Both the position numbers and the translations under genes were made by a program. Below the pieces are notes generated by a model. The model did no database searches. It saw only the letters and a program-made list of their open reading frames with translations, and was not told the DNA's origin. This document shows positions 1 to 20,800 of a DNA stretch of 26,589 nucleotides, in pieces. Position 1 is the first letter of the stretch; each line of letters opens with the position of its first letter. The stretch comes from a virus. The stretch spans positions 1 to 26,589 of IMG/VR virus record IMGVR_UViG_3300020166_000099; one strand, 5' to 3'.

Positions 1-174
1 GCCGAGGGTCCTACAGGATTAGGCGCATCCGTTAATGCTCCGGCCGAGGGTCCTACAGGATTAGGCGCATCCGTTAATGCTCCGGCCGAGGGTCCTACAG
101 GATTAGGCGCATCCGTTAATGCTCCGGCCGAAGGTCCTACAGGGTTAGGCGCATCCGTTAATGCTCCGACTAGC
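1..174 (+). repeat. 42-bp tandem repeat, 4+ copies, coding
   Basis: Units at 1-42, 43-84 and 85-126 appear identical. The unit at 127-168 differs at two positions, and a diverged unit follows. The period is exactly 14 codons, so expansion or contraction keeps the frame. The near-identity suggests recent expansion. The array runs off the left edge of the window. Confidence 0.95.
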
Positions 175-354
175 GGCCCGACCGGTCTATCTACTGCAAA
201 GCTTACGCTTAATATTAATATCGAAGCGAGTCAGGACACGATTGTTGCTAAGACTACCGAGCCGGCCGGAACCATTGAATATGCTTCGGATGTCGGATAT
301 CTATTCATATACGACGGAACCGATTGGCATCGTACTGACGGGGGTAACAGCTAA
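1..354 (+). CDS. Tail fibre module with GPTGL 14-residue repeats (5' partial)
   Basis: The reading frame is open from the first base and ends at TAA 352-354, so the start lies outside the window. The visible part has 117 residues. It begins with four near-identical 14-residue units (AEGPTGLGASVNAP) and a diverged fifth unit (TSGPTGLSTAKLTL). A short beta-like tail follows, ending in LFIYDGTDWHRTDGGNS. The ending resembles the DGSAWH ending of the next fibre genes, a motif I associate with modular phage tail proteins. The GPT(G/N)L repeat also occurs in the 1098-residue gene at 17824. The role is inferred to be a minor tail fibre or tip component. The next gene follows after 7 nt, so both are probably co-transcribed. 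Repeat number and N-terminal anchor are unknown because of truncation. Confidence 0.7.
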   Translation, partial: AEGPTGLGASVNAPAEGPTGLGASVNAPAEGPTGLGASVNAPAEGPTGLGASVNAPTSGPTGLSTAKLTLNINIEASQDTIVAKTTEPAGTIEYASDVGYLFIYDGTDWHRTDGGNS

Positions 355-361
355 CTAAGCC

Positions 362-667
362 GTGGGAGATATAAAAATATTTAATTCCGCTGGAGAGAAC
401 GATAACGAAAATACTATAACCTCTTCCGGATCGTCTGTCGGCCGAGTAAAAGATTTATATTTACTAAAATCTGAAATGGTTGAGCTTGAAGAAAAGGTTG
501 AGACTAATACCACAAAAGTGGAAAACATTACATCTGGCGCACCTGAAGAGATGGACACCTTGAAGGAAGTTGCTGACAGTCTGGACCTTGAATCATTTTT
601 AGATGCTTTGAACGGCCCAAAACCAGCCGCAGGCCCCTCAAATATTCAAGCAGTTCAAGTACCGTAA
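362..667 (+). CDS. Small phage tail/fibre-type protein ending in a GPSNIQAVQVP unit
   Basis: This 101-residue product starts at GTG 362, 7 nt after the previous stop. Residues about 30-60 are polar and charged with coiled-coil character. The segment SGAPEEMDTLKEVADSL matches a motif I recognise from phage tail-fibre proteins (GAPE.LDTL.E.A..L). The last eleven residues, GPSNIQAVQVP, look like one truncated copy of the GPTNL repeat seen in the flanking gene and in the 17824 gene. The role is inferred to be a virion fibre or connector module; no enzyme motif is visible. The GTG start is supported by tight spacing and the lack of an upstream in-frame alternative. No clear ribosome-binding site is seen. 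Confidence 0.65.
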   Translation: MGDIKIFNSAGENDNENTITSSGSSVGRVKDLYLLKSEMVELEEKVETNTTKVENITSGAPEEMDTLKEVADSLDLESFLDALNGPKPAAGPSNIQAVQVP

Positions 668-720
668 AAAAGTTCATCCATCCGATTGAGAACTATTAAA
701 TAACAAGGAATATATAGAGC

Positions 721-1239
721 ATGCCCAGCATTTTAGAAGCCTTAGGAACCTCTTTAAGCGGAAAGCTCGGAGAAAAATTAAATCTTGCCGGTGGTACTCT
801 TACTGGTCCTTTAATTGTTCCCGAACCTACCGCTGCAAACCATGTAGCAACAAGTAGTCAAGTAACCACTCTTGAATCTGCTATTGGAAATTATGGCGAC
901 TTTGTGGCAAGCTCTGCTGATGTTACCGTCTCGGTCTATGATACCGCAGCAAATATATTGGCCCGAGCAAGCGATCCGAAGGGTACCGTTGCTGTAGCCA
1001 GTGATACAAGCGCAATTTATTATTGGGCTGGTTCTGTATGGACTGCATCCAATATCGCAAGTATTCAAGCTGACAGCTTAGCCGCCGCCTTGACGCTTAA
1101 TATTTCCGGGGATACAGAATCATCCATCCGGTTACGCGAAGGAGATGCTACTGGTACCGTGATGTACGGAACGGATACTGACAAGCTATACATCTTCGAC
1201 GGATCCGCATGGCACGAATATCAACCAGCAGCAGCATAA
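721..1239 (+). CDS. Modular tail fibre protein with two DGSAWH-type modules
   Basis: This is a 172-residue product. The N terminus (MPSILEALGTSLSGKL) resembles the starts of the genes at 4374 and 4030(-). Next comes LAGGTLTGPLIVPEPTAANH, the phage tail pattern GGT.TG.L.....PTA linking to a short helix. Two copies of a module follow. The first (VYDTAANILARASDPKG to YYWAGSVWT) is about residues 80-115. The second (LREGDATGTVMYGTDTDKLYIFDGSAWHEY) is near the C terminus. The first is closely paralogous, also at DNA level, to the minus-strand gene at 3824-4030. The likely role is a minor tail fibre or tip subunit. Only a distant AAGGA-like stretch lies upstream, so initiation probably does not depend on a strong Shine-Dalgarno sequence. 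Confidence 0.7.
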   Translation: MPSILEALGTSLSGKLGEKLNLAGGTLTGPLIVPEPTAANHVATSSQVTTLESAIGNYGDFVASSADVTVSVYDTAANILARASDPKGTVAVASDTSAIYYWAGSVWTASNIASIQADSLAAALTLNISGDTESSIRLREGDATGTVMYGTDTDKLYIFDGSAWHEYQPAAA

Positions 1240-1246
1240 ATACAAA

Positions 1247-1552
1247 GTGAGCGACATTAATACATATGCAAACCAGGCAGCGATCGATTTGCTAACTCCA
1301 ATCGCTGGCGATCTTGTGGTCAATCGCGAGACCAATGCTCTACATCTTTGCACCAATGCAACCGGGCCAGTCTGGAAAATTTTCACAAATGACAGCTCGG
1401 CCAGCGGATATATTGAAATCGATCTATTTGGTGCAGAAGCAACAATCCTAGCGGATAGCACCCAAGAAATTGGCACCGCCGCATTATCGGACGAAGGAAA
1501 TATTTTAGTATGGAACGGATCCGCGTGGCACATCTTTAATTTTGACAGCTAA
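1247..1552 (+). CDS. Small tail fibre module protein
   Basis: This 101-residue product starts at GTG 1247, 7 nt after the previous stop, and the same 7-nt gap separates the first two genes in the window. It has two weakly similar halves. The first is about residues 1-48 (AAIDLLTPIAGDLVVNRETNALHLC to VWKIF). The second is about residues 58-101 (ATILADSTQEIGTAALSDEGNILVWNG, then SAWHIFNFDS). The ending is the DGSAWH-type motif shared by the neighbours. There is no signal peptide, membrane segment or catalytic motif. It is inferred to be a virion-associated fibre module from similarity and context, and its exact position in the particle is unknown. Confidence 0.65.
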   Translation: MSDINTYANQAAIDLLTPIAGDLVVNRETNALHLCTNATGPVWKIFTNDSSASGYIEIDLFGAEATILADSTQEIGTAALSDEGNILVWNGSAWHIFNFDS

Positions 1553-1567
1553 AATTACAAATTATTC

Positions 1568-2419
1568 ATGAGTACATTTGAAGTAAAAACACAAGCAGAG
1601 ATCAATGCACTGAGCCTCGATACGAGCGCAAAAGGTCGCGCATATTTTAATGATACCAACAGTTCTATAGTCGCGTGGGACGGCACGGCTTGGCGGTCAT
1701 GGGAGAGCGATGGTGGTTTTGCTACAGGTTCTTTTCCGTCCAATTCTTATAGTGCTTTGTTTGACGGTGCAAATGATTACATTGATACAAACAAAAAATT
1801 TGATTTTCTACAGCAGACCTGTGAGTTTAGTTTTACTTGTTGGGTAAAGTTCACGGATCACACAAGCACAGCGGCTAATCAGTTTTTATTAGGTAACACT
1901 AATACAGGCAGTCAACCGGGTGTGATGTGTTGGTACGATAATAGAAGTGCAGCGAAGCAATTAAGAGTAGTGGTTTCACCTGGTGCAGATTCTGCAAACG
2001 ATATTTTTGTAAATGTAACCAGTGCTATTACCGACAACGATTGGCATCATATAGCTGTTACTGCTTCAGGTAATGGAGGTACTTTAAAGATGTATAAAGA
2101 CGGCTCGTTAATAGGAAGCAATTCTGGGTTAACCACCACGACTAGTACAAGTTATCACAATATGCAAATAGGAGCAGTAGGAGGGGCGTCGCCTACTAAT
2201 TTCTTAGGAGGTCACTTAGACGAAGTCGCCTTCTTTACTCGTGAATTAACACTTAGTGAAATAGACGATATTAGAGCAACACCTTACAGCTACATTAATT
2301 ATACTTCGCTGTATCGTTTAGAAAATAATGCGAACGATGAGTCAGGAATTAACAACGGCACTAACAATGGTGCTACTTTTGTAGCTAAAGCTACCGACTC
2401 AACCAACACGCCTTACTAA
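1568..2419 (+). CDS. LamG/concanavalin-like lectin tail fibre
   Basis: This 283-residue product begins with a DGSAWH-type module (residues about 1-45, SSIVAWDGTAWRSWESDG). After a short linker comes a LamG-like jelly-roll of about 190 residues. Landmarks are YSALFDGANDYID, FSFTCWVKF, NDWHHIAVTASG, LKMYKDGSLIG and FLGGHLDEVAFFTRELTLSEI, which is the usual order in the Laminin_G_3/ConA-like family. Such domains bind glycans, so host-surface recognition is likely but inferred. No Shine-Dalgarno sequence precedes the ATG. A small partner gene begins one base after the stop (TAATATG). The gene is paralogous in layout to the fibre gene at 2648. Confidence 0.8.
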   Translation: MSTFEVKTQAEINALSLDTSAKGRAYFNDTNSSIVAWDGTAWRSWESDGGFATGSFPSNSYSALFDGANDYIDTNKKFDFLQQTCEFSFTCWVKFTDHTSTAANQFLLGNTNTGSQPGVMCWYDNRSAAKQLRVVVSPGADSANDIFVNVTSAITDNDWHHIAVTASGNGGTLKMYKDGSLIGSNSGLTTTTSTSYHNMQIGAVGGASPTNFLGGHLDEVAFFTRELTLSEIDDIRATPYSYINYTSLYRLENNANDESGINNGTNNGATFVAKATDSTNTPY

Positions 2420-2420
2420 T

Positions 2421-2648
2421 ATGAGAACATATGTAATAGCAAATACTTCCGAGGTTAGTGGTTTCGATTTTGACCAGCTTATCGACATCGATGAATCGTA
2501 CAGTCGTAAGAGTTTAGACGGATCAAAGATACTAGCACGGTACGAAGGCACACAACCATCTTTCCTTGCCGGAAAGACTGAGCATAGTCACGCAGAAATT
2601 CTTGCGATCTTGAGAGGTCCTGCGTGGACGAGCGAAGAACCTTTCTAA
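2421..2648 (+). CDS. Small protein paired with the LamG fibre (candidate fibre assembly partner)
   Basis: This is a 75-residue acidic protein. The only recognisable feature is the C terminus, GPAWTSEEPF. The small protein following the second LamG fibre ends similarly (DPSWFVTSEEPI). In tailed phages a small gene directly after a fibre gene is often a fibre chaperone or assembly factor. By position this is a good candidate, but I do not recognise the family. It starts one base after the fibre stop, and its own TAA shares its last base with the ATG of the next gene (TAATG), so translation is probably coupled across all three. Confidence 0.65.
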   Translation: MRTYVIANTSEVSGFDFDQLIDIDESYSRKSLDGSKILARYEGTQPSFLAGKTEHSHAEILAILRGPAWTSEEPF

Positions 2649-3553
2649 TGGCAACCCTTGATACAGTAGCAACACGATCGGCGAATACTAATAGTATCCC
2701 CGACGGGAAAGCATATTTCGAGACGAGCACAAATCAATTCATCGTCTGGGATGCGACCGATGGCGAATGGATACAGCTCGATTCCGATGGCACCGGCGCG
2801 GTACCCATGTCCAACGACTACAGCGTGAGCTTTGATGGAACTAGCTATCTAAATTTAGGAGATTTAGGAACAGCTGGTCACTCCTTAGGTTGTATGTCTA
2901 TCTGGTTAAGTGTAACTAGCTCACCAGGACTAATCTCTGGTTCCGGTGGAAATATTGGCTGGTTAATAGGTTTAGGTGGAGGCCTACAAGGCTTAGGTTG
3001 GGGTTACTGGAACGGAAACAAGGATCTTTTAGGCTATTACGCGGGTGGTTGGCAAACAACTTACGACGTGCCTACAAGCGGAGACGGTCTTGCCGCAGGG
3101 TATCATAATATTGTCATGAACCATAACGGTACCGGTTACGATATTTATATAGATGGGGTTATCGCGTATGCCGCCACTCTTGCGAGCGGTAATACCGGTG
3201 ATATTTCCGGTTACCAGACGTCAACATCCGGTATTGTCTCCGGCTTTTATTTTAACTCTGTCAAGCTAATGAAAGTTGATTATGGTACTGGATACAATAC
3301 TACTGGTCTGCTTGATGAAGCCTCTTTCTGGGATAGCCCCTTAACCGCCTCACAAATATCTGACATATATAACAACGGGGTTCCCGGAGATTTAGGTGAC
3401 CTGCAACCAAACGGTTGGTGGAGAATGGGTGAATCCGACAGTGCGACAGACGGCGGAACTGTGACCGGAATCCAAGATATTTCTGGAAACGGTAATCACG
3501 CAACCACAGTTGCGAATTCTCAACCTACATTCTCAACATCCGTCCCTTCCTAA
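2648..3553 (+). CDS. LamG/concanavalin-like lectin tail fibre (second paralogue)
   Basis: I chose ATG 2648, which overlaps the preceding stop (TAATG), over an in-frame ATG 24 nt upstream, because the N terminus then matches the other fibres. The product has 301 residues. The N-terminal module (about 1-48) ends QFIVWDATDGEWIQLDSDG, a variant of the DGSAWH motif. A LamG-like domain follows (YSVSFDGTSYLNLG, YHNIVMNHNGTGYDIYIDGV, LLDEASFWDSPLTASQIS). The C terminus has the GWWRMGESD and DISGNGNHAT patterns common in LamG-bearing secreted and phage proteins. The likely role is receptor binding. It differs strongly from the 1568 fibre within the lectin domain, as expected if the domain is exchanged or under diversifying selection. 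Confidence 0.8.
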   Translation: MATLDTVATRSANTNSIPDGKAYFETSTNQFIVWDATDGEWIQLDSDGTGAVPMSNDYSVSFDGTSYLNLGDLGTAGHSLGCMSIWLSVTSSPGLISGSGGNIGWLIGLGGGLQGLGWGYWNGNKDLLGYYAGGWQTTYDVPTSGDGLAAGYHNIVMNHNGTGYDIYIDGVIAYAATLASGNTGDISGYQTSTSGIVSGFYFNSVKLMKVDYGTGYNTTGLLDEASFWDSPLTASQISDIYNNGVPGDLGDLQPNGWWRMGESDSATDGGTVTGIQDISGNGNHATTVANSQPTFSTSVPS

Positions 3554-3554
3554 T

Positions 3555-3827
3555 ATGAAATATAAATTATTTAGTACACCGGCGGAATTTGATGCTAAAG
3601 AAGCAGAAATGATGATTGCGTTTGGCCTTCCCGACGGTAAAGGAACTGTTGGATTTAATGGGTCAAGCGAAGGTCATATGATTATGAATCCTGAGCATGC
3701 AGATTACGGATTATTTGCATTCGGAGTAAAAACCGAAGGACCTTTTAAAGCAGACCAACATTTTGATTCATCCGAGCTTGTAGACCGCGACCCAAGCTGG
3801 TTCGTAACCTCAGAGGAGCCTATCTAA
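3555..3827 (+). CDS. Small protein paired with the second LamG fibre
   Basis: This 90-residue product starts at ATG 3555, one base after the fibre stop (TAATATG). An in-frame start further upstream would overlap the fibre and is less likely. It is acidic and polar with no membrane segment. The end (DPSWFVTSEEPI) resembles the end of the partner protein at 2421 (GPAWTSEEPF), while the remainder is not obviously similar. A fibre-assembly role is inferred from position and tail similarity. Its stop codon overlaps by four bases the stop of the convergent minus-strand gene, which marks one edge of the inverted cassette. Confidence 0.65.
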   Translation: MKYKLFSTPAEFDAKEAEMMIAFGLPDGKGTVGFNGSSEGHMIMNPEHADYGLFAFGVKTEGPFKADQHFDSSELVDRDPSWFVTSEEPI

Positions 3828-4030
3828 ACCGTAATAGCGATCGCTCCCCAGGAGCTGGATCCTAGATAGATATATAGCTTATTTGTATCGCTAGCTAATG
3901 CGATCGATCCGACGGGGTCATTCTCCCGGGCAAGTATATTTGCTTCTGTATCTACTACTTTAACCAATCCACGGTTATGCTCAGTTGAGCTGCGAACCGC
4001 AGACCCGATAGCGCTGGCTAGGTTACTCAA
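3824..4030 (-). CDS. Inverted short fibre module protein
   Basis: This 68-residue product starts at TTG 4030. The N terminus MSNLASAIGSAV resembles MSNILSQIGASV of the plus-strand fibre at 4374. Residues about 22-60 (VVDTEANILARENDPVG to LYIYLGSSSW) resemble the first module of the gene at 721 (VYDTAANILARASDPKG). The DNA is visibly similar there too. It therefore belongs to the fibre family but lies on the opposite strand. The start overlaps the end of the upstream HTH gene (TTGAGTAA), suggesting coupled translation. It could be a functional alternative fibre, a regulator-linked moron product, or a stranded inverted remnant. The intact frame argues that it is kept. Confidence 0.6.
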   Translation of the reverse strand: MSNLASAIGSAVRSSTEHNRGLVKVVDTEANILARENDPVGSIALASDTNKLYIYLGSSSWGAIAITV

Positions 4031-4205
4031 AGGATACCCCCAGACTATTTTCTACATCGTTTGCGAGGTATCGAATGACGCGAGAATTAACAAGTTTTCG
4101 TTCCCATCCATATTGTTTCGCCCATCGACGAACAGTACCGGAAGAGACATCCATCTTTTCCCGGATGATTCTTGGCGAAAGATATCGAATTTCTTTTGCG
4201 ACCAT
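4023..4205 (-). CDS. Small helix-turn-helix protein
   Basis: This 60-residue basic protein starts at ATG 4205, with an in-frame stop just upstream that fixes the start region. Residues about 10-31 (SPRIIREKMDVSSGTVRRWAKQ) form a clear helix-turn-helix: a helix, the turn around DVSSG and the recognition helix TVRRWAKQYGW. The style resembles small phage regulators and the N-terminal HTH of small terminase subunits. DNA binding is likely, but the target is unknown. It is the first gene of a two-gene minus-strand unit whose second gene is a fibre module. The product is too short for a full small terminase. It might regulate the cassette or be a decayed remnant. Confidence 0.6.
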   Translation of the reverse strand: MVAKEIRYLSPRIIREKMDVSSGTVRRWAKQYGWERKLVNSRVIRYLANDVENSLGVSFE

Positions 4206-4265
4206 TTCCGATTAGTAACGATTATGAGCGCTTCTTGCGACCGGTTGGAAAACGGTAGCATCCGA

Positions 4266-4294
4266 TTGAAAAAGCGTGTGGGTAGGCGGATTAT
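4266..4294 (+). promoter_or_regulatory. Possible sigma70-type promoter for the 4374 gene
   Basis: TTGAAA at 4266-4271 (5/6 of consensus) is followed after 17 nt by GATTAT at 4289-4294 (4/6). It lies in the 168-bp gap that separates the minus-strand HTH cassette from the strongly expressed-looking gene at 4374. Nothing else in the gap is recognisable, except a short A-rich leader before the ATG. The match is modest and could be chance. Confidence 0.25.
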
Positions 4295-4373
4295 AGGAGC
4301 ACAAAGACTAGGGGGAGGAATACAAAACCCTTTTTTTAACTAAACCAAAAATAACCCAGAATATATACATACT

Positions 4374-5495
4374 ATGTCAAACATTCTTTCACAAATCGGT
4401 GCATCCGTAAAAACCAAGGTCGACGGCGTTCAAGCCAATGTCGAAGCCGAAGCAACCGCAAGAGAAGCAGCAATCGCTGCAGAAGCAGCGGCTCGCGGAT
4501 CAGCAAACACAACCTTACAAGCTAACATCGACGCAGAAGCTAGCACCGCGCGTGCTGCTGAATCTGCTAATGCTACCGCAATTTCCTCCGAGGAAACCGC
4601 ACGTATCGCAGCAGTAACTGGTGAAGCTAGCGCAAGAACCTCGGCGGACAGCACTCTTCAAGGAAATATTGATGCAGAAGAAACTGCAAGAATTGCCGCT
4701 GACGCAACTCTTACTACCAATCTTGCATCTGAAATCACTGATCGCCAAACCGCAGTAACCGGTGAAGCTACCGCAAGAGCATCTGCTGATACCGCACTTC
4801 AAGGTGAAATTGACACCGAAGAAGCTGCTCGTATTGCAGCTGACACTACTCTTACTACCAATCTCGCATCGGAAATCTCTGATCGTCAGACTGCAGTAAC
4901 TGGTGAAGCTACCGCACGTGCTGCTGCTGATACCGCACTTCAAGGTGAAATTGACACCGAAGAAGCCGCTCGTATCGCTGCTGACGCAACTCTTACTACT
5001 AATCTCGCATCTGAAATCTCCGATCGTCAGACCGCAGTATCTGGTGAGGCTACTCTTCGTTCAACCGCTGACGCTGCATTAGACGCTGCAAAGGCTAACC
5101 TTTCTGGCGCAAGCTTTACTGGAGCGATTAACGGAACTGATTTGGTACTCAGCGGTAATCTTACCGTTCAAGGTACTACCACCAGTCTCGAAACTGTTAA
5201 CTCCCAAGTTAAAGACTCGATCATGCTCTTAAATGACGGAGCTGCAGACAACACTAACAACGGAAACGATGTTGGATTGATCATGGAGCGCGGAAGCTCT
5301 GAGGACAATGTTGCATTGGTATTCGACGAAGGTGAAGACAAATTCGTATGCTACAAAACTTCAGCTACCGCTGCTTCGACCGACATTTCTGGTGACGACG
5401 CAAACGCTGAGCTTATGGACATCAAAGTTAACGATGTATTCATCGGATCTGACAACCTTGGTTCCTTGGCAGAGTTTGTAGCCGCTCTCGGATAA
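4374..5495 (+). CDS. Coiled-coil tail fibre protein with 47-residue repeats
   Basis: This is a 373-residue product. The N-terminal anchor MSNILSQIGASVKTKV is shared with the fibre modules. Residues about 22-240 are Ala/Glu/Thr-rich and helical, with a 47-residue repeat at about 101-147, 148-194 and a third copy ending near 240. Core phrases are EEAARIAAD, TTNLASEISDRQTAV and GEATARA. Residues about 245-373 form a beta domain (SGASFTGAINGTDLVLSGNLTVQG, VKDSIMLLN, DVGLIMERG) of a type common in phage structural and fibre proteins. A trimeric elongated fibre is inferred. The A-rich leader lacks a Shine-Dalgarno sequence. Codon choice resembles that of the capsid gene, and a strong terminator follows, suggesting high expression from its own transcript. 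Confidence 0.75.
   Translation: MSNILSQIGASVKTKVDGVQANVEAEATAREAAIAAEAAARGSANTTLQANIDAEASTARAAESANATAISSEETARIAAVTGEASARTSADSTLQGNIDAEETARIAADATLTTNLASEITDRQTAVTGEATARASADTALQGEIDTEEAARIAADTTLTTNLASEISDRQTAVTGEATARAAADTALQGEIDTEEAARIAADATLTTNLASEISDRQTAVSGEATLRSTADAALDAAKANLSGASFTGAINGTDLVLSGNLTVQGTTTSLETVNSQVKDSIMLLNDGAADNTNNGNDVGLIMERGSSEDNVALVFDEGEDKFVCYKTSATAASTDISGDDANAELMDIKVNDVFIGSDNLGSLAEFVAALG
4674..5093 (+). repeat. 141-bp coding repeats (three units)
   Basis: There are units of 47 codons at 4674-4814 and 4815-4955, and a diverged third at 4956-5093. Units one and two differ mostly at synonymous positions, so the protein repeat is conserved above the DNA repeat. They encode the helical shaft of the fibre. 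Confidence 0.85.
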
Positions 5496-5534
5496 AAATT
5501 CCTCCCTACACTACCAGACATTCATGACTTGAAC

Positions 5535-5567
5535 GGGGGTCGGAGGGCTATCTCTCCGGCCCCTTTT
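5535..5567 (+). terminator. Rho-independent terminator after the 4374 gene
   Basis: The 5' arm GGGGGTCGGAG (5535-5545) pairs with the 3' arm CTCCGGCCCC (5554-5563) around an 8-nt loop. This gives ten pairs including one G-T and a bulged G, followed by TTTT at 5564-5567. It ends five bases before the next ATG, so the downstream lysis genes depend on read-through or on a promoter I cannot see. Confidence 0.85.
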
Positions 5568-5572
5568 CATCT

Positions 5573-6010
5573 ATGCGATTATTCACTACAGTTCTAGTCC
5601 TCGTTGCGATCTATATAATCGCAGCCATGACTTCGTCGTGTAGCATGAAGACCTTTGCACCTACCGCCCTGGGGGCTGTTGGTGGAGGAGTGGGCGCAAT
5701 CGGAGGCCCGGGAACAGCATTTGCTGGAGCGGGTCTAGGAGCTGCCGCAGGGCAGATAATAAAAGAAAGTGATACCGTTCAATCTCAGGCTGAAAAGCTA
5801 AAAGCTTTAAGCGAAGGAGATGTATCAAAATTGGTAGAGCTTAAACTCAAAGAAGAACGCGGATGGTTCGAGAAGATGATAAATGGGGTGTACGACATCC
5901 TAATGATCGCAGCCCTGGCGATGGTCCTATACGTGGTATTCAATTTCTGGCACGGGCGGAAGCTCGTACAAAACATAAAGAAAAGTACAAACAGTTTTTT
6001 CGACACATGA
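5573..6010 (+). CDS. Lipoprotein-like protein with C-terminal membrane segment; candidate unimolecular spanin
   Basis: This is a 145-residue product. Residues 1-23 are a signal peptide with a lipobox-like TSSC. A glycine-zipper stretch follows (about 33-62, GAVGGGVGAIGG, GAGLGAAAG). Next is a charged helical segment (about 65-105) rich in Glu and Lys. A hydrophobic segment lies at about 110-126 (ILMIAALAMVLYVVF), then a basic tail. An outer-membrane lipoprotein anchor plus a C-terminal inner-membrane segment is the known layout of unimolecular spanins such as T1 gp11, which fuse the two membranes during lysis. The overlap with a holin-like gene (ATGA) supports a lysis role. The lipobox has Thr instead of Leu at -3. 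The alternative is a glycine-zipper membrane protein of other function. Confidence 0.55.
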   Translation: MRLFTTVLVLVAIYIIAAMTSSCSMKTFAPTALGAVGGGVGAIGGPGTAFAGAGLGAAAGQIIKESDTVQSQAEKLKALSEGDVSKLVELKLKEERGWFEKMINGVYDILMIAALAMVLYVVFNFWHGRKLVQNIKKSTNSFFDT

Positions 6011-6174
6011 TAACAATGATTACGGACAACGCAGCAATACTAGGATGGACCGGCACAGTCGCCACGATTTCTATCGGTCAATGGAACGAGGCAATCGCTT
6101 GCATATGCGGTGTCGTTACTACGGTATACATGATTACCAAGCTGATTAATTTAATTCGAAACAAGAAAGACTGA
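6007..6174 (+). CDS. Holin-like small membrane protein
   Basis: This is a 55-residue product. ATG 6007 overlaps the previous stop (ATGA), so translation is probably coupled; a longer in-frame extension into the preceding gene is unlikely. There are two hydrophobic stretches (about residues 9-22, AAILGWTGTVATIS, and 29-47, AIACICGVVTTVYMITKLI) around a short polar turn. The tail is basic (NLIRNKKD). Small size, two candidate membrane segments, charged C terminus and location after the spanin candidate fit a phage holin that permeabilises the inner membrane. No endolysin gene is seen in the window. Confidence 0.6.
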   Translation: MITMITDNAAILGWTGTVATISIGQWNEAIACICGVVTTVYMITKLINLIRNKKD

Positions 6175-6177
6175 ATC

Positions 6178-6318
6178 ATGGCATTTAAACATTGCGAAGG
6201 CTGCCCAGAGAAAAAGAAAGCTCTGTGTGCAAAATTTAGAACCTGCTTATCTGAAAAAGGAAAAGGAAAAGCTAAGAAGGGCGAGAAAAAGCCTGTTAAA
6301 AAAGGCACATACGGCTGA
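6178..6318 (+). CDS. 46-residue Cys- and Lys-rich small protein
   Basis: ATG 6178 follows the holin-like stop by three bases. The 46 codons end at TGA 6316-6318. The N-terminal half carries four cysteines (C6, C9, C17, C23; HCEGC, LCAKFRTC) spaced as in a small metal-binding or disulfide motif. The C-terminal half is almost all Lys, Gly and Glu (EKGKGKAKKGEKKPVKKG). A purine-rich AAGAAAG lies upstream. I do not recognise the family. It is a plausible real gene from its position in a tight cassette and its biased composition. It may share a CxGC-type motif with the 52-residue protein at 21120. Confidence 0.5.
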   Translation: MAFKHCEGCPEKKKALCAKFRTCLSEKGKGKAKKGEKKPVKKGTYG

Positions 6319-6378
6319 TTTTATAAGATTTAAAGCTTTTAGCTGCTAAATCAGATTAAATGCCTGTTATAAAAGGCA
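6291..6378 (+). repeat. Two near-identical 17-nt hairpin-forming direct repeats
   Basis: GCCTGTTAAAAAAGGCA at 6291-6307, inside the end of the 46-residue gene, recurs as GCCTGTTATAAAAGGCA at 6362-6378 with one mismatch. Each can fold (GCCT with AGGC). The second extends to AATGCCT/AGGCATT (6359-6380). There is no T-tract after it, so it is not a standard terminator. The 105-bp gap 6319-6423 holds little else; no convincing promoter was found. Confidence 0.6.
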
Positions 6379-6423
6379 TTCCAACCGGTTACATATTTGT
6401 AGCCCAATGTATATCTTCGCGGT

Positions 6424-7494: not shown

Positions 7495-7533
7495 TTAGGA
7501 GTACTAAAACCTAATCTTAAATAAATAAATAAA

Positions 7534-9018: not shown

Positions 9019-9062
9019 GTTCTATGCCGGCTAGGATTTCTACAATCCAACCCTAAAACTTG

Positions 9063-9097: not shown

Positions 9098-9114
9098 ATA
9101 TAACAAATAAAGTC

Positions 9115-9474: not shown

Positions 9475-9483
9475 TATGTTACA

Positions 9484-10236: not shown

Positions 10237-10240
10237 GTAT

Positions 10241-11536: not shown

Positions 11537-14500
11537 TCAAAAGTTTGAAGAGCTCGAATCTAAGCTCGCAGCTTTAAGCTCGCAGGTCGAAGACCTTGAG
11601 CAAGAGACCGAAGTCGATCCGTTCTTCGAGGACGATGTTCGTAGGGTAATAGACGATTTTAAAAGCCGTGAGCTCGCAGGTCTTGAGTCGGAGGACGAAG
11701 ATTTTGATGATGATGAGGACTCTAGCTCGGATGATTTTATAAGCGTTCAGACTACAGCAGGTCCAAGCTTTAAAACTCATTGGATTGCTCCGAAATCCTG
11801 CAATAATATGACCCGCGACCTTGCCCGCGATGCCTTTGTCCAGGGAGCAGCAGATAGGTATGGTACCAGCCAGCAAGTAAACAACGGAGATGTTCTTATT
11901 TTACTATGCCGCGAACCTGTAGCCGAAGAGCCGGAAGAGGGTAGCGAGGCCGAGGAGCCGGAGCCCCCCAAGAAAATATGTAGATATGTTGGGTTGGCTT
12001 ATAATACATTAGTTCATCCAGCCTCTGCTGAGCCAACAAGTGAGACTGAGGAAAGTATTTCAGCACCCGTTGGAAACTATGAAATATTTGTATGGAGCTC
12101 ATGCGAATGCTCGGATGAGCCTGCAGAAACCGTTGTTCTCCCCTCCATATTTGAAGCATCTACCGGGTCAACATCCAATGGAAACTATGCGAGCATTGGA
12201 AGTGACGAATCTCCAGACATGTCAAACGCTGACGGGTTATTGACTGAAGCTTCTCTAAGAAAAAGCAAAGATACAAGCAGTTCTAATTTAGCCAAAGGAC
12301 TGTCTAACACGCTATCTAAAAACGCTGCCGGCTACAAAGCTCAGCTTGTACAGCTATCCCAAGAGCTTAGCAGATACCATCTAGATCAAAAAAAGAATCT
12401 GCTGAATTTTGAAGCTGATAAGAAAAATCTAAACTCTCATGGATTTGGTTCGGATCTTTTTGTATCCAAAAATCTAGAGCTTTCGAACGGAGAGTGCGGT
12501 AATCTTGAAACTGTAAGTATATCAGGAGAAACCTTTGACTTAGCTTTGCTTAAAGAAGGTACTCCTAGCTTAGGTTCGACTTTTCTTTCAACAGCAAAAA
12601 TTAGCTTAGGTACTGCCGTAAGTATTGGCGGAACATTTAATTTAGATGTCTACGACACTAATCCAGTATCGTTAGGCCAAGATTTGAAATTTGAGACAGG
12701 AAGCACAGTATTCCTTCCGGTTATTACAGAGAAGAATGCGGATTTAATTACAACTTCTGATACTATAGATTCGCAGGCGTTTAGCTTAACAGGTGCTACT
12801 GTTACTTCGGATAGCTCTGGCGTAACTGTGTCTATCGGTACATCGGCTAGCACGTTTACTGCAAACTACTCCTCGGGTTTACTAACGCACAAAGGCTCTA
12901 CAACTACCAACTCTGGCAGTATTAATTTTAATATTCCATCCGTAGAAGTTTCAATATCCGACCTTGTTGATTTAACAAATACCGCGGAGATATCCCCATA
13001 TCCGATTACATCACTATCTAATGTTAGAGCAGATTCTGGTACTTATTCTGTATCTCTTTATAATATTCCATTACTTGCCAATCTATCGAAGGTGCGATCA
13101 AATTTTGCGGGTGGGCTGTATCGAGATTCTACAGCTATTGAGGGTTTAGACGGGGTTAGTTTAGGTAGTATAAATATTCCTAGCGGAACGACCGATCTCG
13201 GAGTTCCATCCTCTTCGGATCTTAATATATCAGCTAGCAAATCATCAGCCAGTGGGGGAGGGGTCGATGTAAGCCTCGGACTGGCCTGGATTGGAAATAG
13301 TTCAGAATATGATCATGGATTGTTTAAGGGTAATACGGCTGAGGAAAATCAATCCGCATCTGACTCATTTAATATTGAATTCAATGATCTAGCTACTCCT
13401 GGAAATCTTGGATCTGCAGGATCTTATATTAAAGAGCTACAAAATTTAGAGGGGTCAGGAGATTATAATAGCAATGGCGGGATTGATTTAAGTCTTGAAT
13501 TTACATCTCTTAAAAGTCAGCTCAATTTTATTGATAAAGGATTTTTCAATAATGAGACAACTGTCTCAACTGGATCCGGATCTTGGTCAGTATCCATTTC
13601 GCCAATGTCAATTGGTACCTTTCCAGATCTTGGAGAAGAAAGATCAGATGCATTAATTTCTAATATATCAGGTCTTAGTTCTTCAATAGATTCGAGCCAT
13701 AGCAATTCTGGAGATACTAAAATAAATCTTACTGGAAGCTTACAAAATACAAACTATACATTTACTAAAGGGCTGCTTACTGGTGCTACTGTTTCTAATG
13801 CCTCTAGCGTATCTTTAGGCAGTATAATAGTTCCCAAACCTGCTGGAACAAGCGATGACCACACGCCCGAACTTTTTAAAACATCAGTAAACTCGGGGGG
13901 TGCGAGCTCATTCTACCAAAAAAGCGTCTCTATATTTTCCAGCAACGATGCACTGATTAATTTTACGGACGGTCTGGCCGTGTCGCTTTCTAACCCGTCG
14001 TATACTCGTATAAGAGGGCTATCTTTAGATGCATCTAATAACAACGGAACTGTAGAGGCTACAAAGCTATCCGATATATCAGTTCGTGGAGTGTACGATG
14101 TAATCTATGAGTCTGAGGAGACGGGGGATGCTCGATACTACATAGATTACACATATCAAGATATTACTCTTACTATTCAGAACGGGTTGGTTACAGAGAC
14201 CGCACTCGGATCTTCGACAACGGAATCAAAAGGCCCTATAAATGTACCGGGAGCAGATTTAAAATATGGTTGCGATCCCGAATATGGCTGTCAGCCAGAC
14301 CCAGCAGGCGAGTTTTTTGATTCCTCATGCGGCTCAGGGTGCGTGGCTGAAGAGTTAATTCTTTCCTACAGGCCTTCAAATATTTGGATATATACAGAAT
14401 CGTCATATGAAAATGGAGAGTTTTGTTTTAACCTTGAATCATCTCATGAATCAATTCCGGCTGGTGCGGATTTACAAAACCAATTTTATACGAATGGCGG

Positions 14501-15299
14501 TCATTTAAAGGCTGAAAAGATTGCGGGTAAAAAAGTCGATAATTTCTATGTAAACAATGTTCTAATTCCGGAAGATACTATTTATTATGCGGAGAAAGAT
14601 CCGTACGACGTGTGTAATGCTGTACGGTTTGAACATTCATTTAGAAGGTACCGCGAAAATACATTAGACGATGGTTCAAGATGTTGGACTTTTATTTCCG
14701 AACATATATACATCCCTGGGCAAGGAGACGATAGAACTGTAATATGTACTAATAATGGGCGAGTAGTTTCTAAATTAGATGCCCTCGGTATAAATGTTCC
14801 CGAGTATCAAGTTAACAATTTACCTATCGGTCAGGACTTTTATGTCGATAGCAGAGCAGGGGATTACAACGGAATTTCTATTCAATCTACGGCACCTGGA
14901 AATACGGAAAATCCACCGCTCGGCGAATGTTCAACAGCGGCTCAAATAGATTATCAAGCAAGCGGGAATTCTACCCCATCTGAAATAGACCATGAAGATA
15001 CAATAGTATATCCTAAAACTACATCTACTACAGATGTAAATGTAAAGTTAACACTTCCGAACGACGGGTATATAGGCTCCACGGGTATGAGCGGCGTTTA
15101 TCTGGGTTTTACAAATTCTGACGGGTCTAAACTAGAAAGTCTGGAAGCTTACCCTTATCGAGGAGGTGGCAATAATAACGGTCCGGTAGAATTCACTATT
15201 CGTATACCCGAAGGAAGTACGTCTTTAACATATGAAATTAGACTGTCTCCTATAGGCATTCCGCCTGAATCATTTATTCTTCACTTAACTTCGCAATAA
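11523..15299 (+). CDS. Giant beta-repeat tail protein (1258 residues)
   Basis: ATG 11523 overlaps the preceding gene. Residues 1-35 are a short coiled coil, and 36-70 are extremely acidic (DDDEDSSSDDF). About 75-205 is a folded domain with Cys pairs. About 235-310 is helical. About 310-930 is a long Ser/Thr/Gly/Asn-rich beta array with loosely repeated units marked by phrases such as FTKGLLTGATVSNASSVSLG, YSSGLLTHKGST and GVSLGSINIP, suggesting a beta-solenoid or beta-helical shaft. Near 920-945 is a Cys cluster (YGCDPEYGCQPDPAG, SSCGSGC). The C-terminal third is beta-rich and may be the tip. It is inferred to be a large host-contact tail protein. I cannot name a family. Confidence 0.6.
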   Translation: MLEDDQKFEELESKLAALSSQVEDLEQETEVDPFFEDDVRRVIDDFKSRELAGLESEDEDFDDDEDSSSDDFISVQTTAGPSFKTHWIAPKSCNNMTRDLARDAFVQGAADRYGTSQQVNNGDVLILLCREPVAEEPEEGSEAEEPEPPKKICRYVGLAYNTLVHPASAEPTSETEESISAPVGNYEIFVWSSCECSDEPAETVVLPSIFEASTGSTSNGNYASIGSDESPDMSNADGLLTEASLRKSKDTSSSNLAKGLSNTLSKNAAGYKAQLVQLSQELSRYHLDQKKNLLNFEADKKNLNSHGFGSDLFVSKNLELSNGECGNLETVSISGETFDLALLKEGTPSLGSTFLSTAKISLGTAVSIGGTFNLDVYDTNPVSLGQDLKFETGSTVFLPVITEKNADLITTSDTIDSQAFSLTGATVTSDSSGVTVSIGTSASTFTANYSSGLLTHKGSTTTNSGSINFNIPSVEVSISDLVDLTNTAEISPYPITSLSNVRADSGTYSVSLYNIPLLANLSKVRSNFAGGLYRDSTAIEGLDGVSLGSINIPSGTTDLGVPSSSDLNISASKSSASGGGVDVSLGLAWIGNSSEYDHGLFKGNTAEENQSASDSFNIEFNDLATPGNLGSAGSYIKELQNLEGSGDYNSNGGIDLSLEFTSLKSQLNFIDKGFFNNETTVSTGSGSWSVSISPMSIGTFPDLGEERSDALISNISGLSSSIDSSHSNSGDTKINLTGSLQNTNYTFTKGLLTGATVSNASSVSLGSIIVPKPAGTSDDHTPELFKTSVNSGGASSFYQKSVSIFSSNDALINFTDGLAVSLSNPSYTRIRGLSLDASNNNGTVEATKLSDISVRGVYDVIYESEETGDARYYIDYTYQDITLTIQNGLVTETALGSSTTESKGPINVPGADLKYGCDPEYGCQPDPAGEFFDSSCGSGCVAEELILSYRPSNIWIYTESSYENGEFCFNLESSHESIPAGADLQNQFYTNGGHLKAEKIAGKKVDNFYVNNVLIPEDTIYYAEKDPYDVCNAVRFEHSFRRYRENTLDDGSRCWTFISEHIYIPGQGDDRTVICTNNGRVVSKLDALGINVPEYQVNNLPIGQDFYVDSRAGDYNGISIQSTAPGNTENPPLGECSTAAQIDYQASGNSTPSEIDHEDTIVYPKTTSTTDVNVKLTLPNDGYIGSTGMSGVYLGFTNSDGSKLESLEAYPYRGGGNNNGPVEFTIRIPEGSTSLTYEIRLSPIGIPPESFILHLTSQ

Positions 15300-15300
15300 T

Positions 15301-17778
15301 ATGCCAAACTACGAATATCAAACTACTGTATCTTTGGGTGGTGAGTATAAAGAAAAAGCCCCAAGGAAAGAAGGCTTTACCACATATGTAAACGGTACCG
15401 TGGATGTTACAACTCCTGGTGAGTATGTAATTACATACACCCACTTAAAACCTGATCCGTTTGAATCTATAACTGAGTCTAGATTAGTTACCGTATCTAA
15501 TGAAGGTTCTTTAGATGATACGCCTGAGCCTATTGTCCATCTATATGGAAATAGTGTTGAAACTATTAGCCGAGGCCAAGAATTTGTAGATCCTGGTGCT
15601 TATGCACTTAGTCATCCAAATGCTCTAAGTAGTGATGCATCAAATTTAGTTGTTAAAACTGTATCCTCTGTAGAAGAAAATAGTTGGTCGTCCCAACCAG
15701 TTGGGAGCTATACAATTTTATACTATGCGGTATCAGAAGGAAAGCGCGTAGGATTTGCCGCTAGAACAGTTATTATAGAAGTAGGCCCGACCTTGCTAGA
15801 GTTGTACGGCTGTTCGAGACTGTATATAGAATATCCAGGAGACGGTACTGTGCCTATATATGCCGGTGTGGACTATTCTGAAAGCGGTTCGCATATTACT
15901 AAAGATGCAGGCTATAATATTGAGGGATCTGACTACGATTTAAAAATATTTGTAAAGCGAGAAAGTGGTGGGAACTCGTATATTGTTACACCTGATAATA
16001 TATTTTTTACAGGCGATCCGGATAATAGTCAGACTTTTAATATTTACTACTCGGTTACAACTTCTTCAGGCGTTCAGAAACTAGCTATTAGAGAAGTTAC
16101 TATGGTTAAGCCTGGAGAAACTGATGGAAGCATTTTATCTGGTTTAGCATTTCAAGAAGAATCTGATGACGGATGTGCAGATGTTGCGCCAATAACCTCA
16201 GAAGATACCGAATACGATGATTTGTTTGATGAACTTGGAGATGCTATAAATGACGATCCTGATTTAACAATTGAAGAGGATTTACCAGATCCAGAAACTG
16301 ATAATTCTCTAGTAGTTCTTTGTGCGGGAGATACTGCATATAACGGAAGTATTTTTCCAAGTTCTTGGACTTCAAACCCTGGAAAGATTCCAGAAACTAT
16401 TATAGAAATTCATTATACACCCGCGAATCCCACGGGGTGGGATCTTTGGTGGAGAACAAAAACTGGTATGGTATTGCCAGGAGATAGCGAGCAGACCGAA
16501 TGGTTTGCAGAAAAAGGTGTGGTAACTTGGAGACTTCATAAAGTTCATAGCGAAACAAAAGTTACATACTCCTATGGACTGGGGGCTGGAGTAGATTCTT
16601 TTAGAGATTCATCAAAAGATTTTATATTTTCAACATTTGAACCCTACTACGACGCTGCTGGAAATAGGATTGGTGATATATTTTACGGCTTTTTTGGAGT
16701 TCATATATTTACTGAAGAATATGGATGGACGACCAATCAAACTAAGAATAGTGGCACATTATTTAATAGTGGAACTTATTGGGGTAAATCAGCTAGTTCT
16801 GTTACCCGTGTAACACAAGAGCTCAAAGATCACCATATGGAGGTAATCTCATCAGGAGAGCATCAATATACAGACGATGGACAACCCCTGCGCGTTCTTA
16901 GCGATCCAAACAGTAATACGCTAACCTCTGGTCGTTATGCAGGTGTTATATTTAACTCGCACCCTTTATGGCGTGCTTTTCAAATAAAGATAAATAAGCA
17001 AGATACAGGCACTGTTGCGGGGGAAGATATTATTAGTCTTAGATGGCAGACTATTGCTGGTGCAAGAGATGTTAGTTCCTATTGCGACTATTATATTGAG
17101 CCCACCCCGGAGCCTCCATCCCTTCCTCTATTTTGTAATACTACAATTGAACCAGGAAGCTTCACTTTGTGGAACGGTACTACGACTGAATATACACCTG
17201 GAGGCACCGTTCCTGCATGCCTTATTGAAGTTACATGGACGGATAATCCTTTTAAAGGAAATCATACGATGGGCTTGTATGAGTACTCCAACATCTCCCC
17301 GAATTCCAACTATTTCGATCTGCATGGCACTGAAACTCAATGGCTTTTAGAAAAAATTTACGAAGATAGGGTGCTTTATATTAGTATTAGTGGAGAGCAA
17401 CGTTTTGTAACGATTGATCAGGGCGATCCTACAATGAACAAGTTCGTGGGTAGTAGAGGTACATATTCTTGGAATCATTGGAGTATAGCTCACAACGGAT
17501 CCGGCTTACCTGGTCATAACCCCATTACTAATTTTGAAAACGGTACTCGAATATTAGAAGATGATATTGATAACCGCTTGTATAGTCTGGATCAGCCAGG
17601 GGCGTATCAGGGTCAAAAGTACTATAAAGGTCTCGTGGCCTGGGATAGATCCAGTTTTGGTTGGGCGGATCCACAAAATAATCCCTCTAAAACTTTAAGG
17701 ACATTTCCGTACGGTACTGCCGTAACCGATACTCCGCATACATACTCGGTAGAGCAGACAATTAATCCATGCTCATAA
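15301..17778 (+). CDS. Tail protein with Ig-like (DUF5011/HYR-type) domains and a duplicated C-terminal domain
   Basis: This 825-residue product starts one base after the previous stop (TAATATG). Residues about 1-80, 83-160 and 165-270 look like three Ig-like domains. The second is clearest (VHLYGNSVETISRGQEFVDPG, then VGSYTILYYAVSEG). This is the DUF5011 pattern of a sugar- or surface-associated bacterial Ig fold. An acidic linker (about 280-330) precedes two related domains at about 336-600 and 606-825. They share an opening Cys, an EIHYTP/EVTWTD strand, a TEWFAEK/TQWLLEK phrase and downstream Gly/Tyr-rich strands. The likely role is a fibre or adhesin on the tail. No enzyme motif is visible. 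Confidence 0.6.
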   Translation: MPNYEYQTTVSLGGEYKEKAPRKEGFTTYVNGTVDVTTPGEYVITYTHLKPDPFESITESRLVTVSNEGSLDDTPEPIVHLYGNSVETISRGQEFVDPGAYALSHPNALSSDASNLVVKTVSSVEENSWSSQPVGSYTILYYAVSEGKRVGFAARTVIIEVGPTLLELYGCSRLYIEYPGDGTVPIYAGVDYSESGSHITKDAGYNIEGSDYDLKIFVKRESGGNSYIVTPDNIFFTGDPDNSQTFNIYYSVTTSSGVQKLAIREVTMVKPGETDGSILSGLAFQEESDDGCADVAPITSEDTEYDDLFDELGDAINDDPDLTIEEDLPDPETDNSLVVLCAGDTAYNGSIFPSSWTSNPGKIPETIIEIHYTPANPTGWDLWWRTKTGMVLPGDSEQTEWFAEKGVVTWRLHKVHSETKVTYSYGLGAGVDSFRDSSKDFIFSTFEPYYDAAGNRIGDIFYGFFGVHIFTEEYGWTTNQTKNSGTLFNSGTYWGKSASSVTRVTQELKDHHMEVISSGEHQYTDDGQPLRVLSDPNSNTLTSGRYAGVIFNSHPLWRAFQIKINKQDTGTVAGEDIISLRWQTIAGARDVSSYCDYYIEPTPEPPSLPLFCNTTIEPGSFTLWNGTTTEYTPGGTVPACLIEVTWTDNPFKGNHTMGLYEYSNISPNSNYFDLHGTETQWLLEKIYEDRVLYISISGEQRFVTIDQGDPTMNKFVGSRGTYSWNHWSIAHNGSGLPGHNPITNFENGTRILEDDIDNRLYSLDQPGAYQGQKYYKGLVAWDRSSFGWADPQNNPSKTLRTFPYGTAVTDTPHTYSVEQTINPCS

Positions 17779-17819
17779 TGCCAAGCGATTGCTACACAAT
17801 GAGAAAGCGGGGAGTATAA
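17778..17819 (+). CDS. Possible 13-codon leader ORF
   Basis: ATG 17778 shares a base with the preceding TAA (TAATG, the junction used elsewhere in this gene run) and reads MPSDCYTMRKRGV to a TAA that ends 4 nt before the GTG start of the next gene. It could be a coupling leader peptide that carries ribosomes to the next start, or chance. Nothing is known about its sequence. Confidence 0.3.
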   Translation: MPSDCYTMRKRGV

Positions 17820-17823
17820 GGCG

Positions 17824-20800
17824 GTGAGGTTTTTCCGGATACCATCCTTCACCGGGATCGAAGCGCATCGCGATGACGCCGATCGCGGCTCCCTTCGTTT
17901 AGTCGAGGGTTGCTTACCGCACGGGCCGGGCGGTTTGCGTAGCGGTCCTGTGTGGAAAAAAATTGGAGATGTTCAATATGTCGCGGATGGTGACCAAAAT
18001 AAAATATCTTCCGCAGATGATGGATTAGGAAATTCTATAGTCTTTGTATCCCGACAGAACGAGGTTCACGATATAGCACTATTAACCACTGAACATACCG
18101 AGCTAGAATCTTTCACAGAGCAGGAAGAATTTACATTTGAAGATCCATCGCTTTATACCGCTGGTCCTGCAAATATTACTCCAATAGGTAATAAACTTTA
18201 CGCCGTCGGAGATGGGAGTAATGAATCAATATTTGTAGGTAAAGGCCCGGACGATACTTTTGAAGTTTTTCCAGACGAAAGTTTATACAGTCAAGAATGG
18301 TCAAGGTTTCCAAAATGTCAGTTCTTTGTTCAAGGACCTAAGAAAACAATCTTTGCAGCAGGCAATCCAGATAAACCATTAACCGTATACATATCAGAAC
18401 CTGCAGGCCTAACCTCTCCGTATCGAGATACTCCTTACAGTACTGAGGATACAACTTATAACCGGGGCGTACTTTCGACCGTCGACATTTTAGGTTCGAA
18501 TGCGAGCAAAATAACAGCACTCTCAACCCGTGGAGATCAAGTAGTAGTCCATACGGACAAAGGATGTCATCTTCTCTACGCACCCGCTCCAGACCAAGCA
18601 AATACTGGATATCGTGTTGAACAAGCACCAGCGACTAATTTCTCAGCAGCTGTAAATTCAAAAGTTGTTTCCCGAGCATCTGGATCATTGACATATTGGG
18701 TAGGGCACGACGGCCAAGTTTACAAGGATGAGGCCGCAAGTCGTGGGTCGGAGGACTTAAGAAGCCGGGCGGATGAAGACCAAGCAAACTGGAAAAGTAA
18801 GGGCGTATGGGAAGATGAATTACCTACAGACCTAACTAAATCTTTTGCTGTATACTCCCCACAGACCGGGATGTACTGGTTCTTTGTAGAGTCCGAGGAA
18901 AAAAAAACTTTTGATCTAATTCCAAGAACCCCGTTGAGGGGGCCTAGGAATTTAATAGCTCGTATACTAGCCCCGTTTTTCGGACCAACAAACCTAGAGG
19001 CAGTAATCCTTCCGCCAGAGGTTGGGCCCACAAATTTAGAGGCTGAAGTTCTTCCGCCAGAAGTTGGACCAACAAACCTAGAGGCTATAATTCTTCCGCC
19101 AGAAGTTGGGCCTACAAACTTAGAGACTGAAGTTCTTCTGCCAGAGTCTGGGCCCACAAATTTAGATGCAGAAGTTTTACCACCAACTGAAGGGCCCACA
19201 AATTTAGAGGCTGAAGTTCTTCTGCCAGAGTCTGGGCCTACAAATCTAGATGCAGAAGTTTTACCTCCAGAAGTTGGACCTACAAATCTAAAAGCTATAA
19301 TTCTCCCTCCACCTGAAGTTGGACCTACAAATCTAGAGGCAGTAATTCTCCCGCCAGAGGTTGGACCTACAAACCTAAAAGCTATAATTCTACCACCAGA
19401 AGTTGGACCTACAAATCTAAAAGCTATAATTCTACCACCTGAAGTTGGACCTACCAATTTAGACGCAGAAGTTTTACCTCCAGAGGTTGGACCTACCAAT
19501 TTAGAGGCAGTAATTCTCCCGCCAGAAGTCGGACCTACAAACCTAGAGGCAGTAATTCTCCCGCCAACTGAAGGTCCTACAAATTTAGATGCAGAAGTTT
19601 TACCGCCAGAGGTTGGACCTACAAATTTAGACGCAGAAGTTTTACCTCCAGAGGTTGGACCTACCAATTTAGAGGCAGTAATTCTCCCGCCAACTGAAGG
19701 TCCTACCAATTTAGATGCAGTAATTCTCCCGCCAACTGAAGGTCCTACAAATTTAGAAGCTATAATTCTCCCTCCAGAAGTCGGACCTACAAATTTAGAT
19801 GCGCTAGTACTTCCGCCGCAAGTCGGGCCAACTAATTTGCAGGCTGTTGAACTACTAGGTCCTTTCTCCGCTAAGGTTGAAAATGTTGTCGGGGGCTGGA
19901 ATTTAACCGGGTACTCTTCCGTAAAAAATACAGGTAACTGGACATCGTTTTTAAATTCCTACAATTTAAACAGTAACACTGGAACACCTGTGACTTTAAG
20001 TGTTCGGGCAGAAGTTGACAGCCAATTCGTTGACGCACATTTCCATAAAATATACATACCGGAAGAGGTTATATTTAATCCCGATATCGATGATCCTTAC
20101 TGGGATTCTGTAAACCGTTGGTACTATAAATCTGAGGTTGACGGTTTAACATATAATCAAGATGCAACTGTTCAAATAATATGGGGTGCATCACCTGTAG
20201 CACCGTACCTCGGGCCAACAAATTTACAAGCTTCTATACCCGACGATTTTACCCCTGATCCAGAAAGTTTATATATTGTCGTAGAAATATCTGAAGAGGG
20301 TACAAACCTTGATGACTTCAACGGTTGGCAAAGTGATGAGCTCGGATACAGCGATCCTGGAGGTTTACTCACAGTTGAAGAAACTAGATACTTTGGGACT
20401 ACGAGCGAAAAATCCGGAGTAAAACACAATGTCGGAGCTCAAAGAATAGAAATCGGAGGGAGGAACGGGCATGTTAATTCCGTATATCATCCAGGAATTC
20501 TTGTAAGGAATGATAACGGATATTTTATGAATGGATCCGCTTACACCATGTCCGCTGTGGCTAATGAAGGTTGGTCGTTTACGGGCTGGGTTATTAAGCA
20601 CCTAAACACTACTCCAGAGTCTGAAAGGCTTGGTACTGCTGCGGGCGAAGTGCAAATTGTTAGTGGTGCTTTAGACAACCCTACAGATCTCACTCTTTTA
20701 GTAACTGACCATACAAACTATATAACCGTAAAAGCTGAATTTATTGACCGCGCCCCCGACGCTGATGAAGTGCCCGATCCCGGAAACAAATATAACTTAG

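Follow-up and report, generated by a model that had tools for sequence, protein, structure and literature searches.

Phage repeat arrays that may supply the first strand of FN3 domains encoded by separate genes

Arrays of short P-x-x-L units in virion proteins of this phage and its relatives probably donate strand A of the FN3 fold to separately made FN3 subunits, which would produce a beaded fiber. The array unit appears to have the length and lettering of the first FN3 strand, and in relatives small genes encoding an FN3 domain that begins after this strand are found next to, or close to, the array genes. The closeness of the two kinds of gene, the replacement of the FN3 gene between nearly identical flanks, and the fit of the unit to the missing part of the domain argue for a link between the arrays and FN3.

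RESULTS AND DISCUSSION

A 14-residue unit in three genes

The window, i.e., the whole stretch of DNA analyzed, corresponds to a 26,589-base virus record and begins inside gene 1. A unit of 14 residues, GPTNLxAxxLPPxx, is present in three of its genes, namely, gene 1 (positions 1 to 354), the gene at 362 to 667, and the gene at 17824 to 21120, here called the array gene (Table 1). Positions 1 to 168 consist of four 42-nt copies with 98% matches (translation, GPTGLGASVNAPAE), and a divergent fifth copy (GPTGLSTAK) starts at position 175. The 21 units of the array gene keep a step of 14 residues throughout, with one gap of 15. A degenerate DNA pattern for GPTNLxA gave 21 forward matches (the isolated unit and all but one of the 21 array units) versus none on the reverse strand and none when read backwards in the window, indicating that the repeats did not arise by chance.

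Table 1. Coordinates of the repeat units and associated features in the window
Feature	Position	Strand	Remarks
Gene 1	1..354	+	Cut by the left end of the window; four 14-residue units, a fifth divergent unit, and C-terminal stretch GTIEYASDVGYLFIYDGTDWHRTDGG
Single C-terminal unit of gene 362-667 (GPSNIQAVQVP)	632..664	+	Gene end reads ...AAGPSNIQAVQVP*
N-terminal anchor domain of array gene (~360 aa)	17824..18939	+	Conserved; 31 IMG/VR relatives, 45 to 99% identity
Degenerate unit (GPRNLIARILAPFF)	18940..18981	+	Immediately before the 21-unit array
Array, 21 units of about GPTNLEAEVLPPEV	18982..19866	+	Read as repeated FN3 strand A
Isolated unit (GPTNLQASIPD)	20212..20244	+	In the C-terminal region of the array gene
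226-aa gene after the array gene	21278..21958	+	C-terminal part (...MREMAVGYNIGKSF) kept in relatives

The sequence-only reading had located the repeat at four places, and all four, with their positions, their copies, and the isolated unit, were confirmed in the sequence. Its view of the unit as a portable element also held up, as the unit occurs in different virion genes of one phage, in collagen-like genes of relatives, and, reworded, in tail-tip genes of Aeromonas phages. No known repeat family was recognized over the array in searches with the whole protein (PHROGs, E value of 0.01; Pfam, E value of 0.1), a PDB search with the window's array protein gave no match at an E value of 1, and no relative of the window's array was found in bacterial genome contigs (20 pattern matches, none confirmed). 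The C-terminal unit of the gene at 362 to 667 is retained in L049 to L051 and is missing from the related gene in L115.

Selection on the unit and variation in copy number

Pairwise comparison of the 21 copies at the positions of GPTNL.A gave a pS of 0.573 and a pN of 0.007. Synonymous sites thus vary freely and the motif is almost invariant, so it is the motif itself that is under selection; over the whole unit, the dN/dS of the 21 copies was 0.22. The number of copies differs among close relatives. Counted with one motif, the arrays of the window, L012, and L013, which share anchor domains of 98 to 99% identity, hold 22, 18, and 15 units, and the full-length relatives of gene 1 in L049, L050, and L051 (292 to 347 aa) hold 11, 14, and 10 counted units. 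Units recur every 14 residues (15 in one case) in the arrays of the window, L012, and L013. Across 15 arrays including those of relatives, the spacing ranges from 11 to 18 residues and is often mixed inside one array (14 to 17 in L016, 13 to 16 in L027, and 11 to 18 in L038).

The array gene and its relatives

The anchor domain gave no significant PHROG or PDB match; its identification as a tail-nozzle protein, considered because of a resemblance, received no support from the searches. By reading, an array was placed directly after the anchor domain in 22 of 31 anchor loci of viral contigs. L028 has one unit, L029 is cut off, and units are absent from L014, L015, L025, L026, L034, L036, and L037. 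The arrays of relatives share the frame P-x-x-L-x-A/S with varied wording (e.g., APINLNAEAEQVL, APGVPTNLQSSLIPD, PGTVTGVSATPDL, and GPTGLSATQYIVAPAN). The C-terminal regions that follow differ among relatives, with the array located at the junction (e.g., in L016 and L033), and Pfam recognized RCC1 (matched in one member) and PKD domains among them and, weakly, an InlB-type repeat; the HELCHILG motif in the C-terminal region of L016 looks metallopeptidase-like to us. The C-terminal part of the 226-aa gene recurs in relatives, where it is carried by the gene that follows either the array gene or the FN3 gene described below.

FN3 genes that begin after strand A

Just downstream of the array gene, many relatives have short open reading frames (ORFs) of 74 to 113 aa with starts like MATVTLTW. 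Eight of the 10 ORFs scanned matched Pfam fn3 (PF00041), starting with ORF residue 3 or 4 on profile position 15 or 16 (of 84) and extending to position 75 to 83; four of them scored above the curated cutoff, and those of L019 and L035 gave no fn3 match. A profile built from 14 such ORFs matched FN3 domains in proteins of solved structure. For the ORF product of L020, the AlphaFold model had a pLDDT of 93 to 97 and, from its Met on, matched solved FN3 chains with a Z score of about 10. The single-domain rows of this fold comparison begin at about chain residue 17 to 19 (4o00 from 19, 3mpc and 8bw6 from 17), and in two rows with an rmsd of about 8 (6zva_B and 4m6a_I), residues before the FN3 Met were aligned to the chain starts. 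Since both the fn3 matches and the fold alignments begin past strand A, the first strand is not encoded in these ORFs, which are referred to below as A-less FN3 genes.

The likeness of the unit to the first strand of FN3, seen initially in the window alone, is therefore matched by a domain from which exactly this strand is absent. The accompanying statement that the rest of FN3 is missing pointed the way to this explanation, in that relatives encode the rest as a separate gene. No FN3 gene was found in the window itself; in near relatives, the FN3 gene is located just upstream of gene 1, i.e., beyond the left end of the window.

Fit of the unit to the missing part of the domain

For 10 pairs, a unit was joined in front of the FN3 ORF from the same genome and the product was scored against fn3. 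The joined unit carried the alignment back to profile position 2 or 3 in six pairs. In the four of these that scored without the unit, the gain was small, at 1.4 to 1.9 bits (24.8 to 26.7, 25.9 to 27.7, 20.5 to 22.3, and 32.8 to 34.2); the two further extended pairs went from no score to 15.5 and to 14.0, with the latter alignment reaching only to position 46. Reversed units produced no extension in any of the four cases tried, and 4 of the 10 pairs gave no fn3 match with or without the unit.

When eight L020 units and one A-less FN3 were modeled with AlphaFold as one chain, no unit docked, with the array being represented without alignment rows. The FN3 part reaches its pLDDT of 93 to 97 without strand A, so the strand may not be needed. 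An AlphaFold monomer of the whole array gene product (22 rows) had a mean pLDDT of 39; of the 21 units, 14 form a short strand in it, with a pLDDT of about 46 to 59 at best and lower elsewhere.

Genomic linkage of arrays and FN3 genes

Chains of at least three units were found in 22 of 64 genes neighboring FN3 ORFs versus 6 of 251 other genes (34 loci and 36 FN3 ORFs; Fisher P value of 3e-12, which ignores kinship and how the loci were chosen). This comparison excluded L119, a copy of L019, and 36 of the remaining 39 FN3 ORFs passed overlap filtering. Four of the six arrays scored as nonadjacent (L021, L050, L051, and L105) are in the next or next-but-one gene. By the criterion of at least three units, 23 of the 36 FN3 ORFs have an array neighbor; by eye, the same applies to L023, L050, and L063, the last having a 13-residue PGxVxxL array mostly missed by the regular expression, and neighbors with two to three units were seen for two ORFs each in L070 and L107. 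The array of L025 is in the gene immediately downstream of its A-less FN3 gene. In L070, L071, and L107, collagen-like genes at the position of gene 1 carry two to three units (three by eye in L070 and L071) and adjoin A-less FN3 genes. Genes neighboring FN3 contain no unit in L108, L110, L112, L116, L117, and L118 (L116 was dropped by the filter); the array gene is three genes from FN3 in L112 and next but one in L105.

The FN3 profile matched in 29 of 33 records and in 24 of the 28 records reached via the anchor domain, 13 of the FN3 genes in those 24 being among the 14 that built the profile and thus matching by construction; three anchor loci (L017, L018, and L026) were left out of the scan. 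There were 38 matches, 34 of which are in open frames of at most 125 aa, all starting at profile position 1 to 4. Because the other loci had been chosen by anchor domain or FN3, gene 1 alone was used as bait, yielding eight loci. All six loci with upstream DNA (L120 to L125) have an FN3 gene of class II (see below) upstream, with a 436-aa gene between the FN3 gene and gene 1 in L125; of these six, three were previously known and L120, L122, and L125 are new.

Replacement of the FN3 gene and classes of FN3

L120 and L121 are 98.4% identical over 3,505 upstream bases and 99.9% identical over 1,400 bases holding the array gene, and the FN3 genes between those flanks share 52 identical residues of 106 aligned. 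Between the two, the scaffold is constant and the bead differs.

Two classes of FN3 can be distinguished: class I, downstream of the anchor-array gene, has the motif GG...Y(K)(I/V)YR, and class II, upstream of gene 1, has the motif D(V/I)D..E(I/V). Arrays with a class I gene next to them contain no G-P units in L016 (0/12), L019 (0/13), L020 (0/8), L021 (0/11), L022 (0/9), L024 (0/6), L038 (0/11), L054 (0/12), and L064 (0/17); the exceptions beside class I are L030, L031, L032, and L039, which have 40 to 45% G-P units after a non-G-P first half, and the L039 contig also holds a class II gene. In anchor-gene arrays for which no class I gene was found, G-P units account for 22/22 in the window, 18/18 in L012, 14/15 in L013, 8/8 in L027, 4/4 in L033, and 1/1 in L028. 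Gene-1 arrays near class II are of the G-P type in L049 to L051, L105, L109, L111, and L115, and units beside class II in L070, L071, and L107 are not. The motif used for these counts missed most units of L023, L035, and L063. On a tree in which L064 and L035 meet as long branches, the difference in unit type needs two changes, with one independent pair on supported branches. With just two changes, the partial match between unit type and FN3 class is suggestive at best.

Similar layouts in other phages

The array of the window's protein matched two cultured Aeromonas phages. As judged by eye, the tail-tip protein of the Aeromonas phages (L040 and L073 to L080; Casjensviridae) ends in PxxL units of 13 to 16 residues in all nine distinct records, with the last part of the array out of frame in L079, and the product of the gene after it starts (V/L/I)TL(K/D)W and continues into a longer region, again in all nine. 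Ten relatives, inspected by eye from 747 records with a related tail protein, served as controls: none has an array in the last 160 residues, and in none does the next gene start (V/L/I)TL(K/D)W. Short PP(A/S)GA...FxF tails were seen at the ends of two of the 10, those of RcHartney and Mallos. The start of the Aeromonas next-gene product compared with FN3 gave an hhalign probability of 10% and an E value of 0.003, PDB E values were 0.2 to 0.9, and Pfam did not recognize the domain; an FN3-like character of this start is thus weakly supported. The later part of the same product looked propeller-like.

In a third group of phages, comprising the close relatives L066, L068, and L069, a gene ending in a single unit is followed by a gene with an A-less FN3-like start, and this alternation continues along the series. 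One gene ends ...TPTGLS(V/A)QTL(A/G), the next starts (S/T)FTLNW and ends ...(T/A)P(T/S)(E/N)LSVMNDAGFDS, and the one after that starts MATVTLTW. Searches of cultured phages with tblastn gave no match for the capsid gene, for gene 1 of the window, or for the 608-aa gene (putative portal) of L049.

A proposed beaded fiber and its alternatives

In the proposed mechanism, a unit (P-x-x-L-x-A/S...) would be strand A of an FN3 domain whose strands B to G are made as a separate small phage protein. Each array unit would fill the open A position of one FN3 subunit, so that a single chain would be lined with FN3 beads completed in trans. Their number would be set by the length of the array, which ranges from 1 to about 21 units, and a protein with just one C-terminal unit would hold a single bead or a single FN3-headed protein. 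Because 14 residues can span about 4.6 nm, roughly as much as an FN3 domain is long, neighboring beads would fit side by side. Such a fiber might have a role in adsorption.

A self-sufficient shaft, in which the array forms a trimer, each unit adds a strand and a turn to a rod resembling a beta-spiral, and the FN3 genes encode independent adhesins, appears unlikely. It would suit the regular 14-residue period in the window's lineage, the short strand predicted in 14 of 21 units, and the purifying selection on the unit. However, the spacing of 11 to 18 residues in relatives' arrays is awkward for it (although known shafts tolerate some length change), as is the presence of units in one to three copies near a C terminus, and it offers no account of why array genes adjoin FN3 genes from which precisely this strand is absent. 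The regular trimerizing shaft with a single register that had been suggested from the window is not supported, given the same copy numbers and the spacing that varies within single arrays of relatives. We regard a spacer role, in which a flexible and proline-rich array would separate the anchor from the C-terminal region and its repeats would expand by slippage, as less likely still. Low-confidence models, the richness in proline, and counts of 22, 18, and 15 units behind nearly identical anchors are what a spacer would lead one to expect, but the amino acids of GPTNL.A are nearly fixed while their codons change, the proximity of FN3 goes unexplained, and the unit at the very C terminus of the gene at 362 to 667 joins nothing.

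The alternative to which we give the least credence is that the unit attaches to a different edge of the A-less FN3 (e.g., beside strand G, in the manner of a tandem beta-zipper) or has some other binding partner. The proximity of the genes and the replacement of FN3 demonstrate a functional link without locating the binding site, and AlphaFold closes the FN3 fold without strand A; against this, in 6 of 10 pairs the unit suits the profile positions that are missing, both in sequence and in length. Donation of strand A in trans remains our preferred explanation.

We propose more tentatively, with somewhat more doubt than confidence, that this is a general design of virus fibers, in which a donor-strand chain bears strand-less FN3 beads, the unit type may pick the class of bead, and recombination swaps beads without touching the scaffold. 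Some 300 plus 110 codons would then suffice for about 20 domains, compared with about 2,000, and elsewhere the same plug and socket would join successive virion proteins.

Relation to known systems

Strand A of FN3 can reportedly be given in trans, as in a consensus FN3 scaffold with N-terminal strand swapping (PDB 4m6a); the likeness to the phage case lies in strand A acting in trans, and the difference is that the scaffold is engineered and has no separate strand gene or array. In chaperone-usher pili, Ig-like subunits with an incomplete fold receive the strand they lack from another chain, with each subunit carrying one donor strand for the next, whereas in the phage case up to about 21 donor strands would sit on one chain and serve a separate subunit. 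The adenovirus-type triple beta-spiral shaft is a viral fiber with repeats of about 15 residues and G/P turns that forms a self-sufficient trimer; its repeat length is similar, but the known shaft has no split FN3 partner gene. In the tandem beta-zipper of fibronectin-binding adhesins, as described in PMC4412574, several fibronectin modules gain strands from a disordered sequence; those are complete host FN1 modules, whereas the phage case would involve two phage genes. We found no report of split FN3 domains or donor-strand arrays in phages in the open-access literature searched, including passages of PMC7140400.

If the proposal is right, an FN3 domain can be divided among genes and serve as an exchangeable bead on a scaffold of repeats. 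This would account for phage PxxL arrays that lack annotation and for phage FN3 genes that stand alone, and protein engineering would gain a short strand-and-catcher pair of natural origin. The tail-tip arrays of the Aeromonas phages should then bear many copies of the product of the next gene, a prediction that is testable in cultured phages.

Other genes of the window

A 141-base tandem repeat (3.1 copies, positions 4611 to 5053) is located in the gene at 4374 to 5495, which has weak PHROG matches to virion proteins. The gene at 15301 to 17778, immediately before the array gene, encodes a bacterial surface Ig-like domain (PF16403; E value of 1e-10). On the minus strand, a 698-aa gene at 24420 to 26516 weakly matches DUF5906 (E value of 6e-5, below the cutoff), and an integrase is encoded at 22075 to 23265 (phrog_1; E value of 1.4e-19), suggesting that the phage may be temperate.
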